This document shows positions 25,051 through 32,985 of a stretch of 34,483 nt of DNA, in pieces. Position 1 is the stretch's first letter, and each line of letters starts with the position of its first letter. The notes beneath the pieces were generated by a model. That model did no database searches. It was not told where the DNA came from and saw only the letters and a program-made list of their open reading frames with translations. Source of the stretch: Anaerolineales bacterium (lineage in GTDB: Bacteria; Chloroflexota; Anaerolineae; Anaerolineales; Villigracilaceae). The stretch covers positions 1 to 34,483 of the forward strand of contig JADGQB010000010.1 in NCBI GenBank assembly GCA_017882145.1, in the 5' to 3' direction. The translations under genes and the position numbers were made by a program.

Positions 25051-25126
25051 GGGCCTGTAGCGCAGTTGGGAGCGCGCCTCAATCGCACTGAGGAGGTCGA
25101 GAGTTCGAATCTCTCCAGGTCCACCA
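25051..25126 (+). tRNA. tRNA-Ala (anticodon CGC), CCA encoded
   Basis: GGGCCTG...CCTCA-ATCGCAC-TGAGG...GAGAGTTCGAATCTCTC-CAGGTCC-A-CCA cloverleaf. Confidence 0.95.
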
Positions 25127-25208: not shown

Positions 25209-25281
25209 GGGCCCATAGCGCAGTTGGGAGCGCGTCTCAATGGCATTGAGAAGGTCGAGAGTTCGAATCTCTCTGGGTCCA
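25209..25281 (+). tRNA. tRNA-Ala (anticodon GGC), CCA not encoded
   Basis: GGGCCCA...TCTCA-ATGGCAT-TGAGA...GAGAGTTCGAATCTCTC-TGGGTCC-A followed by CAAATA. Confidence 0.95.
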
Positions 25282-25292
25282 CAAATAGTATT

Positions 25293-25333: not shown

Positions 25334-25383
25334 TGTGATATACTGAAGGTTGATAGTTGTAAACTGAAATCCATTAAAGTCAT

Positions 25384-25703
25384 GACAGGAGTAGTAGGTC
25401 ATCCCGTCAGCGAGAAGGGAGAGCGAGGTGGAAGCCCTTCAAGGCGCAAACTGGAGCGCCACGGACCCGGATGGGTGCCAAAGACCGAACTCGCCTGCCC
25501 TCGCAAGAGAGACTGCGCTGGTGAATCCAGTAGTCAGCGCCGGGAATGCCCGTTAACGCAAAAAGAGAGACGTTATCACGTTGACTGGTTTTCGGGTTGG
25601 AGCGATAAACGCGAAAACACGTAAACAAATCAACTTGCTAACGTAATCCGGGTGGTACCGCGGAGCTGACCCTTCGTCCCTGAGTGGATGAAGGGATTTT
25701 TGT
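25384..25703 (+). ncRNA. T-box leader riboswitch, predicted Leu specifier CUC, with terminator 25670-25703
   Basis: AGTAGTA-GGTC paired to GACC-GAA-CTC (specifier 25490-25492), stem III GCGCTG/CAGCGC, canonical GGGTGGTACCGCG (25650-25662), terminator CCCTTCgtc...gatGAAGGG-ATTTTTG; upstream of leuS. Confidence 0.95.
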
Positions 25704-25728
25704 TTGGATTACCGAAAGGAGGCGTGCC

Positions 25729-25797
25729 ATGTTTGAAATAGTTACAAGAATTATTGAGTTCCGTCCCTGCCTTCTCGCGCGCCTCCGATTGAGCTAA
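25729..25797 (+). CDS. Putative leader peptide MFEIVTRIIEFRPCLLARLRLS
   Basis: AAAGGAGG 6 nt before ATG; 22 codons; 4 Leu in the last 8 codons; lies between T-box terminator and leuS. Not in the ORF track (too short). Confidence 0.55.
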   Translation: MFEIVTRIIEFRPCLLARLRLS

Positions 25798-25887
25798 TTG
25801 TCAAAAGTTGAGTATAAAGTCAAAAGCCTGACATTTAGCTTATGACGTTCGACATTTTCTTTTAGAATCTATTACCAAGGATACAGA

Positions 25888-28350
25888 ATGAGCGACTATA
25901 TTCCAACCCAAATTGAACCGAAATGGCAGGCCAAATGGGAAGCCGATGGCCTGTACCATTCCGATATTGATCCTAAGAGGCCCAAACATTATGCGCTGAC
26001 CATGCTGCCGTATCCCTCCGGAGATCTGCACATCGGTCACTGGTATGCCATGACACCCGCGGATGCACGCGCACGCTACATGCGCATGAACGGCTACAAC
26101 GTCCTGTTCCCAATGGGGTTCGATGCCTTCGGCCTGCCGGCGGAGAACGCCGCCATCAAGCGCGGCGTCCATCCAAAGGTATGGACCTATAAAAACATCG
26201 AGAACATGCGCAAGCAAATGCGTTCGATGGGAGCCATGTTCGACTGGCGCCGTGAGGCAGTATCGGCGGACCCGGAATACTACCGCTGGACCCAGTGGTT
26301 TTTCATCCAGCTGTATAAGCACGGGCTGGCTTACCGCAAAATGTCGCCGGTTGATTTCTGCCCGCATGACAACACCACCCTGGCACGTGAGCAGGTCTGG
26401 GGCGAAGACCGTCATTGTGAGCGTTGTGGCACGCCGGTCATCAAGAAAGACCTGGAACAGTGGTTCTTCCGTATCACCCAGTACGCCGATGAGCTGCTGA
26501 ACTACGAAGGCTTGGATTGGCCCGAACGCGTCCGCACCCTGCAGACGAATTGGATCGGTCGTTCCGAAGGCGCATCAGTCATTTTCAAGACTGAAATGGG
26601 TGATTCCCTGGAAGTATTTACAACCCGACCAGACACGCTGTGGGGTGCCACCTTCATGGTACTCTCCCCGGAACACCCACTGGTCGGGAAACTGACCACC
26701 GCCGAGCACAGGCAGGCTGTTGAAGACTACAAGAAACAGGCTGCCCGCCAATCCGATATCGAACGCGAGGCTACCGATAAGGAGAAGACCGGAGTCTTTA
26801 CCGGAGCTTATGCCGTCAACCCCGTTAATGGAGTGAAGATCCCGATCTGGACTGCCGATTATGTCCTGATGACCTACGGCACCGGCGCCATTATGGCGGT
26901 ACCCGCCCATGATGAGCGCGACTTCGCCTTTGCCCGTAAATTTGGGCTGCAGATCATCCCGGTTATCCAGCCGGAAGGTGTTCCTGACCTGGACGGCGAA
27001 ACGATGGAAGTCGCCTATGTCGGTGCAGGTCACATGATCAACTCAGCCCAATTCAACGGACTGGCCGTTAACGATGAAAAAGGTCGCAAGAATCCCGGCA
27101 TCACCGCCGTAATTGACTGGCTGGCTGGGCAGGGGATTGGCAAAGAGGCTGTCACTTATAAACTGCGTGACTGGTTGATCTCACGCCAGCGTTATTGGGG
27201 CGCGCCCATCCCGATGATCTATTGCGAGAAGGATGGCTGGAACCCGGTCCCGGACGATGAATTGCCCGTCCTGCTGCCTGATGATGTTGCCTGGAAACCC
27301 ACTGGCGAATCGCCTCTGAAACTGCACCCGACCTGGAAACAGGCCAAATGTCCGGTCTGTGGCGAGCCGGCCGTGCGTGAGACGGATACGATGGATACCT
27401 TTATGTGTTCTTCGTGGTATCACCTGCGCTACCTGTCTCCCTGGTACAACCAGGGCCCGTTTGAGGAGTCCGAGTATAACTATTGGATGCCAGTGGATAC
27501 CTATACCGGCGGCATCGAGCACGCCACCATGCACCTGATGTACACGCGCTTCTTTCACAAGGCGCTGCGCGACATGCAGATCACCGAAGGATCCGAGCCA
27601 ATGATCCAACTGCGCAACCAGGGCATGGTGCTGGGCGAGGACCACGAGAAAATGTCCAAGAGCCGCGGCAATGTGACTGCCCCGGATGACCTGGTCCATC
27701 GTTACGGCGCAGATGCGGTCCGCTCCTACCTGATCTTCTTTGCCAAGTGGGATATGGGTGCTCCGTGGAATCGCACCGGCATCGAAGGCACATACCGCTG
27801 GCTGAAGCGCGTCTGGGCGCTGTTCTCTGAGCCAATTGGGAACCCTTCGGCTTCTCCTGAGACTCTAAAGGTGCTGCGACGGAAGGTCCACCAGACCCTC
27901 AAGCAGGTGACGCATGACTTCGAGCAGTTTGAGTTCAATACGATCGTTTCCGGCCTGATGGAACTGCTGAATGAGATGTACAAGGCTAAAGAAGCCGGTG
28001 CAGCCGGCACCCGGGAATGGAGCGAGGCGGTCGATCTTTACCTGCGCATGCTGGCACCGGTCTGCCCGCACATCGCCGAGGAGCTATGGGAGCTGCTCGG
28101 CAAGCCGTACTCGATCCACATCCAGTCCTGGCCAAAGGTGGATGAGGCTGCCACACATGAAGACGAGATAACGATACCGATCCAAATCAATGGTAAACTG
28201 CGCGACCGCCTGGTCTTCCCGGCGGATACCAGTGAAGAAGAGATCAAGTCAGCAGCACTAGCGAGCGAGATCGTCAGGAAATATCTGGAAGGCAGGCAGC
28301 CCAAAAAGGTAATTGTGGTACAGAAAAAACTGGTAAGTATTGTAATATAG
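25888..28350 (+). CDS. leuS: Leucyl-tRNA synthetase
   Basis: MLPYPSGDLHIGHWYAMTPADARARYMRMNGYNVLFPMGFDAFGLPAENAA (HIGH); KMSKSRGNV (KMSKS). Confidence 0.98.
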   Translation: MSDYIPTQIEPKWQAKWEADGLYHSDIDPKRPKHYALTMLPYPSGDLHIGHWYAMTPADARARYMRMNGYNVLFPMGFDAFGLPAENAAIKRGVHPKVWTYKNIENMRKQMRSMGAMFDWRREAVSADPEYYRWTQWFFIQLYKHGLAYRKMSPVDFCPHDNTTLAREQVWGEDRHCERCGTPVIKKDLEQWFFRITQYADELLNYEGLDWPERVRTLQTNWIGRSEGASVIFKTEMGDSLEVFTTRPDTLWGATFMVLSPEHPLVGKLTTAEHRQAVEDYKKQAARQSDIEREATDKEKTGVFTGAYAVNPVNGVKIPIWTADYVLMTYGTGAIMAVPAHDERDFAFARKFGLQIIPVIQPEGVPDLDGETMEVAYVGAGHMINSAQFNGLAVNDEKGRKNPGITAVIDWLAGQGIGKEAVTYKLRDWLISRQRYWGAPIPMIYCEKDGWNPVPDDELPVLLPDDVAWKPTGESPLKLHPTWKQAKCPVCGEPAVRETDTMDTFMCSSWYHLRYLSPWYNQGPFEESEYNYWMPVDTYTGGIEHATMHLMYTRFFHKALRDMQITEGSEPMIQLRNQGMVLGEDHEKMSKSRGNVTAPDDLVHRYGADAVRSYLIFFAKWDMGAPWNRTGIEGTYRWLKRVWALFSEPIGNPSASPETLKVLRRKVHQTLKQVTHDFEQFEFNTIVSGLMELLNEMYKAKEAGAAGTREWSEAVDLYLRMLAPVCPHIAEELWELLGKPYSIHIQSWPKVDEAATHEDEITIPIQINGKLRDRLVFPADTSEEEIKSAALASEIVRKYLEGRQPKKVIVVQKKLVSIVI

Positions 28351-32764: not shown

Positions 32765-32807
32765 TGTGCTTAATACAACACCCCGAACGGCAGCACACCG
32801 TCCGGTT

Positions 32808-32968
32808 ACCCCCCTGGTTGAGTTTTGGCACTGCGTGTCGTAGGGGATGAATTCCCAGCCACTTTGAGCGAGGCCTTAAGCCGGCCTTGCCTGGTCTATC
32901 CCTTGGCGTCTTTGGACGTTTCGGGACAGCGGCCTGTGTCTCACGCAGACGCCTCACCTAACGAGGGT
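32808..32968 (-). ncRNA. M-box (ykoK leader) Mg2+ riboswitch aptamer
   Basis: Minus strand ACCCTCGTTAGGTGAGGCGTCTGCGTGAGACACAGGCCGCTGTCCCGAAACGTCCAAAGACGCCAAGGGA...GCTGGGAATTCATCCCCTACGACACGCAGTGCCAAAACTC; matches remembered M-box hallmarks (GTTAGGTGAGG, GCTGCTGCCCA-AAA-GTC-AAAGACGCCAATGGG, CAGTGCTAAAGCTC). P1 ACCCTC/GGGGGT closes it. Confidence 0.93.
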
Positions 32969-32985
32969 CAATATTTTCACTTATC

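Follow-up and report, generated by a model that had tools for sequence, protein, structure and literature searches.

T-boxes read uncharged tRNA directly, while leader peptides read decoding speed. In the trp leader of E. coli, the ribosome binding site (RBS) of the leader pairs with a downstream leader segment, which limits translation of the leader. According to the theory summarised in PMC1183508, attenuation leaders use the codons that are most sensitive to starvation. In the actinobacterial LEU element, which is located before leuA, a run of Leu codons pairs with the Shine-Dalgarno (SD) sequence of leuA (Seliverstov et al. 2005, PMC1262725). The 2008 survey of T-boxes placed those of the Chloroflexi in Dehalococcoides only, and leader peptides are unmentioned there (PMC2494555). 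In a literature search of partial coverage, we found no report of a T-box and a leader peptide acting in series on one synthetase gene.

The window, i.e. the whole stretch of 34,483 nucleotides analyzed here, comes from an Anaerolineales bacterium of the Chloroflexota and contains leuS, encoding a leucyl-tRNA synthetase of 820 aa, at 25888-28350 on the plus strand. A T-box leader (RF00230) was identified upstream of this gene at 25373-25684 (+), with an Rfam score of 53.2 bits and an E-value of 8.2e-11. The score is lower than the curated Rfam gathering score of 93, as are those of most T-boxes of these genomes. The T-box is real despite the sub-threshold score, and it contains the CTC specifier for the regulated amino acid (25490-25492, +), the T-box sequence, i.e. 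the antiterminator motif GGGTGGTACCGCG (25650-25662, +), and a U-tailed intrinsic terminator CCCTTCGTCC...GGATGAAGGGATTTTTG (25670-25704, +), recognized from sequence and fold. CTC is by far the commonest specifier triplet in the leuS set, with 141 matches compared with 15 for the next triplet when counted with a heuristic pattern. Two tRNA-Ala genes (anticodons CGC and GGC) are located just upstream of the T-box at 25051-25126 and 25209-25282, and an M-box magnesium riboswitch (RF00380, 133 bits) is present on the minus strand of the window at 32804-32972.

The T-box terminator is followed by a leader ORF of 22 codons and then by leuS. The leader ORF is preceded by the SD sequence AAAGGAGG (25715-25722, +), a type (GGAGG) found before the leader in nearly all relatives, and a spacer of 6 nt separates it from the ATG start codon at 25729-25731. 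The ORF, MFEIVTRIIEFRPCLLARLRLS, ends with the TAA stop codon at 25795-25797 and thus occupies 25729-25797 (+); it is recognized from the sequence, its relatives and the conservation of its frame. It contains four Leu codons, CTT at 25771, CTC at 25774, CTC at 25783 and TTG at 25789. The SD, spacer, start, ORF, stop and Leu codons are exactly as given in a preliminary description of this locus, which read the ORF as a leader peptide. Comparison within the family delimited a conserved core, TGC CTT CTC GCG CGC CTC CGA (CLLARLR; 25768-25788, +), with rare CTY Leu codons.

To examine the distribution of the leader, leuS upstream regions were collected from 212 loci, 187 of them distinct, which were found via LeuRS relatives mostly belonging to Chloroflexota and there to Anaerolineae/Anaerolineales. 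An SD-preceded leader ORF was present at 63 of the 106 scored leuS loci, which are those of the window's Anaerolineales family for which 200 nt or more of upstream DNA was available; these counts come from related genomes, many of them metagenome-assembled, and do not represent independent events. Six further leaders were found in G009 and G077 and, by eye, in G159, G074, G132 and G137, those of G132 and G137 starting with GTG. The leader was also observed in three other families of the taxonomic order, in G041 and G054 (f6) and in G304 (f9), and in a divergent form in G059 (f11). The leader is absent from close relatives in which the T-box abuts leuS, including G004, G005 and G007 of the same genus, indicating that it is dispensable. 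In leaderless relatives the T-box is usually near leuS, at distances of 67 nt and upwards from the start codon. In G016, G023 and G062, the T-box is located 1.2-1.4 kb upstream of leuS, before an intervening gene, and the leader is still found directly before leuS, apart from the T-box. The intervening gene in G023 reads by eye as the end of ilvE. In another genome of the same genus (G002:C50, L131), a class 1 leader precedes a divergent leuS with about 50% identity to that of the window, which suggests that the leader was kept and leuS was replaced behind it. The LeuRS proteins of the family often have a long Lys/Ala-rich N-terminal extension, for example at L128, L129 and L285.

The alignment of leaders from related genomes, proposed with the preliminary description, revealed conservation of the SD, the start, the frame and the Leu core among many genera, with drift in the N-terminal and C-terminal parts and in the stop positions. 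When the nucleotide sequences were scanned for the core without regard to ORFs, the nearest SD-ATG was joined to the core by an open frame in 58 of 61 sequences; in the three exceptions (G016, G083 and G074) the pattern took an ATG too near the SD, and the next ATG is in frame. The frame is kept although the distance from the ATG to the core varies from 9 to 24 codons, and in some leaders the two Leu pairs are separated by in-frame inserts, such as the PFDEAQDR-like repeats of G142. Exact copies of the motif away from leuS, among those inspected, lie in longer ORFs or have no SD-ATG leader arrangement, and the nine leuA loci of these genomes examined have no leader of the leuS type. SD-preceded short ORFs are frequent, and the leader is missing from some close relatives, as would be expected of a chance ORF, the alternative raised in the preliminary description. 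However, the frame, the SD, the core and the codon choice are all conserved between genera and between families, which refutes this alternative, and we give it a negligible probability. The sequence-based attempts to refute the leader reading, proposed at the same time, were carried out and the reading withstood them. Based on these comparisons, we suggest that the ORF is very probably a translated regulatory leader peptide of leuS.

The leaders share a consensus core of [GS][PC]-Leu-Leu-x-x-Leu, which is CLLARL in the window and FWKQGPLL elsewhere, and fall into three peptide classes that intergrade. Class 1, [SP]CLLA[RH]L, comprises the window, G001, G010, G013, G016, G035 and others; class 2, FWKQGPLLxxL, is found in G017, G023, G033, G140 and more than 30 others; and class 3, GRLL followed by a basic C-terminal tail, in G034, G076, G078 and G138. 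All 37 class 2 leaders have G, P and the first L, while each of W, K and Q and also the second L occurs in 33-36 of 37. W-K-Q-G-P-L-L persists despite variation at the third positions of the codons (GGT/GGA/GGG/GGC for Gly; CTT/TTG/CTA/TTA/CTG/CTC for Leu), indicating selection on the peptide or on codon identity. The Gly-Pro preceding the two Leu residues recalls known arrest sites, for example that of SecM. Conservation of these non-leucine residues (W, K, Q, G, P) with synonymous variation would also fit a nascent-chain arrest peptide (FWKQGPLL, xVSCLL) that arrests within the exit tunnel, whether or not free leucine acts as a ligand, and thereby controls leuS. On the contrary, the residues surrounding the Leu core are different in classes 1 and 3, so that just the Leu residues and the pairing of the core with the SD, described below, are common to the classes, and the biased codon choice points to sensing of tRNA rather than of the peptide. 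An arrest peptide is improbable in our estimation.

The codon choice in the core is strongly biased. In the leader set used for codon and folding statistics, whose members were picked by SD and ORF, CTT or CTC accounts for 186 of 223 core Leu codons (83%). The leuS genes use CTY for 43 of 426 Leu codons (10%), and the leuS of the window for 4 of 58 (Fisher p ~1e-80 for core versus leuS). The CTY share is 25% in the other genes of the window, 29% in thrS and 34% in leuA, and within leuS it is 6% where the leader is present and 16% where there is a T-box alone. Since the core is rich in CTY and the specifier of the T-box is CTC, it seems that leader and T-box address the same tRNA-Leu class, and leuS avoids the codons of that class. 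This avoidance could also be driven by the tRNA of the T-box alone, or have other causes. The match between the leader codon class and the T-box specifier supports the leucine-specific layer supposed in the preliminary description, and we consider it probable that the leader senses charged tRNA-Leu(CUY).

A structural feature absent from that description is the pairing between the core and the SD of the leader itself. The SD segment GGAGGCGUG (25718-25726) pairs in the predicted fold with CGCGCCUCC (25778-25786), which lies within the Leu/Arg codons of the ORF; this anti-SD segment, CGCGCCTCC (25778-25786, +), was examined by folds, duplex statistics and pair variation. The fold of 25710-25800 has a z-score of -2.5, and 2 of 200 shuffled sequences fold equally well. 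Over 70 leaders, the mean energy of the SD:core duplex is -14.6 kcal/mol, compared with -5.4 for the ORF start and -6.4 for the downstream sequence. When the core codons were redrawn synonymously it was -11.4 +/- 0.3 kcal/mol, and when only the non-Leu codons were redrawn it was -13.0 +/- 0.25 kcal/mol. As the redrawn cores pair less strongly, the pairing is favoured beyond what the peptide and the Leu codon choice would give. The calculated opening energy of the leader RBS is 8.1, compared with 6.0-6.5 in the synonymous control. Cognate SD:core pairs have a slight advantage over pairs swapped within classes (p 0.06 and 0.125). The base pair adjacent to GGAGG varies among the class 1 leaders: most have C-G, G010 and G013 have U-A and G077 has U-G; G010 and G013 belong to different genera, and their U-A pair comes with a change from Arg to His. 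In this listing, the register of G002 and G304 was shifted by one motif. Based on these calculations, the SD:core pairing is predicted to be a conserved structure.

We then consider the output on leuS, for which the LEU element suggests a translational attenuation: the Leu-codon run would sequester the leuS SD, and a stalled ribosome would free it. A stem of this kind has been described before leuA (PMC1262725), and the core, being an anti-SD, pairs with the leuS SDs at a mean of -8.8 kcal/mol, where other segments give -5.5 to -5.7. When the core is masked in the window, the opening energy of the leuS RBS falls from 6.0 to 3.0 kcal/mol. However, cognate pairing of core and leuS SD is no better than swapped pairing, and when the core was masked as by a stalled ribosome over the 70 loci, the opening energy changed from 5.62 to 5.40 kcal/mol, a shift of just 0.2 kcal/mol. 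The difference between initiating and stalled ribosomes (0.63) is likewise not clearly above that of the synonymous controls (0.27-0.55). Sequestration of the leuS RBS by the core was thus rejected as not exceeding controls, and this type of attenuation is an unlikely explanation in our view.

A classical transcription attenuation, in which an antiterminator and a terminator follow the leader, was also considered, since the leader peptide carries conserved cognate codons and classical attenuators have been predicted for leuS of Streptomyces (PMC1262725). Just 2 of 70 loci have a terminator-like signal downstream of the leader, whereas the same scan recovered 59 of 59 T-box terminators, and this mechanism is close to refuted. 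The preliminary description had proposed attenuation through a weak stem of 25796-25802 with 25851-25856 and a following U-run; this stem is absent from the predicted fold and not conserved, and the scarcity of terminator-like signals among the relatives speaks against such an output. The predicted fold instead contains a local hairpin without a U-run over the leader stop (about 25791-25841, +), which by eye does not recur in the relatives' downstream sequences, and no conserved structure was noticed between leader and leuS in the relatives. The leader-leuS gap is slightly richer in C than in G (0.23 vs 0.18), which is uninformative on a Rho site. Taken together, the terminator scan and the null leuS RBS results support neither classical attenuation nor LEU-type sequestration. 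The idea of a T-box and leader-peptide attenuation in series therefore holds in part: a ribosome-dependent layer of leucine sensing is well supported by conservation and codon class, while attenuation by a terminator is not.

When other T-box regions were inspected (n=20, from four genomes), most ran straight into their gene, and the exception pointed to thrS. A short leader with Thr codons follows the thrS T-box in 14 genomes of the family (for example MTTHTRRRLGGLSASL and MTEDSTTFTPKRLGGLPVSVRV; loci L317, L320-L324, L330-L335, L342 and L343, with L292 in addition), with peptides such as MTTHTRRRLGGL and MTEDSTTFTxKRLGGL. The Thr codons of the 14 leaders are ACT or ACC (ACY) in 44 of 47 cases, and ACY accounts for 38 of 418 Thr codons in thrS (9%) compared with 285 of 438 in leuS (65%; Fisher p ~1e-69). 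The avoidance is thus reciprocal, with leuS avoiding CTY but not ACY and thrS avoiding ACY but not CTY. A CGCCTC-type segment after the Thr codons is complementary to the leader's SD, but this pairing is just about 2 SD (standard deviations) better than that of the shuffled body and is therefore weaker evidence at thrS. Downstream, a hairpin CTGCTTC..GAAGCAG is located near the thrS SD GGAAGC; in G016 it reads CCGCTTC..GAAGCGG, and it appears to covary. At another locus (L298; G013:C23:240700-241430), a 62-aa ORF, MEITTKIKITPTETPP..., is located downstream of a T-box and upstream of a possibly trpB-like gene that begins MSEQTGFTLNETDLP.

These results also bear on whether the ORF encodes a functional small protein whose place before leuS is incidental. 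The class 3 leaders (L031/G034, L209/G078, L211/G076 and L214/G138, and also L122/G059) are longer and basic with a conserved P-x-P-V..RR tail, one of them has a sub-threshold NCBIfam match, and they could be a real small protein. For the leaders, no Pfam or NCBIfam family scored above its cut-off. As an account of the ORF in general, a small protein is highly improbable: the C-terminal ends drift, the codons are rare and cognate, the classes share the Leu core and the SD pairing alone, and the thrS leader has Thr codons instead.

Based on these observations, all of them comparative, we suggest, with a probability of roughly 60%, that the arrangement as a whole is best explained by a second leucine sensor after the T-box, with a core that closes the leader's SD and a terminator-independent effect on leuS. 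The T-box would decide by uncharged tRNA-Leu whether RNA polymerase passes position 25704. A ribosome would then start on the leader and have to decode the cluster of rare CUU/CUC codons, which are predicted to be part of the 3' strand of the helix closing the leader's own SD. When charged tRNA-Leu is scarce, the ribosome would linger on the core, keeping the helix open and the leader loaded; when it is plentiful, ribosomes would run off and the helix would shut the leader start. A loaded leader would favour leuS expression without an intrinsic terminator, either because ribosomes re-initiate near leuS or because the downstream RNA is protected or coupled against decay or Rho. Such a latch is suggested because Leu codons that close the leader's own start are the remaining design feature, and as the output of the leader we regard it as a tentative possibility. 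Somewhat less tentatively, though still with less than even confidence, we propose that Chloroflexota have placed terminator-free leader-peptide control downstream of T-boxes at two or more synthetase genes, with Leu at leuS and Thr at thrS, and that in leuS the cognate rare codons, doubling as anti-SD of the leader's own start, would form a ribosome latch reading the isoacceptor of the T-box. The leader also offers an explanation for the additional 100-200 nt found between leuS and many of the T-boxes. The arrangement is widespread in one family of bacteria, has a counterpart at thrS and is accompanied by synthetase genes avoiding the sensed codons. It provides a natural test of selective tRNA charging in bacteria other than the common models, and of regulation that can do without a terminator in its output.

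In the literature searched, the LEU element is the nearest relative of the leuS leader. Both have a leader ORF with a Leu-codon run, Leu codons that pair with an SD, and no terminator. In the LEU element, the paired SD is that of leuA, a pseudoknot is present and there is no T-box, whereas the leuS leader pairs with its own SD, precedes leuS and has a T-box upstream of it; pairing with the SD of the regulated gene showed neither a cognate preference nor a systematic change in accessibility here, and the leader is located at leuS rather than leuA. Classical attenuators, such as those of the enterobacterial leu and thr operons and those predicted for Streptomyces leuS (PMC1262725), share with it the short leader and the clustered, biased cognate codons; unlike them, the leuS leader lies behind a T-box and, in 68 of 70 loci, has no terminator signal after it. 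The module upstream of it is a T-box riboswitch (RF00230) for leucine, with specifier CUC and terminator, to which a leader ORF is added after the terminator, one that needs ribosomes and is separated from the T-box by a gene in some genomes. Finally, the self-inhibition of the E. coli trp leader accompanies a terminator attenuator, whereas no terminator was seen with the leuS leader, and here it is the run of cognate codons that forms the closing strand.
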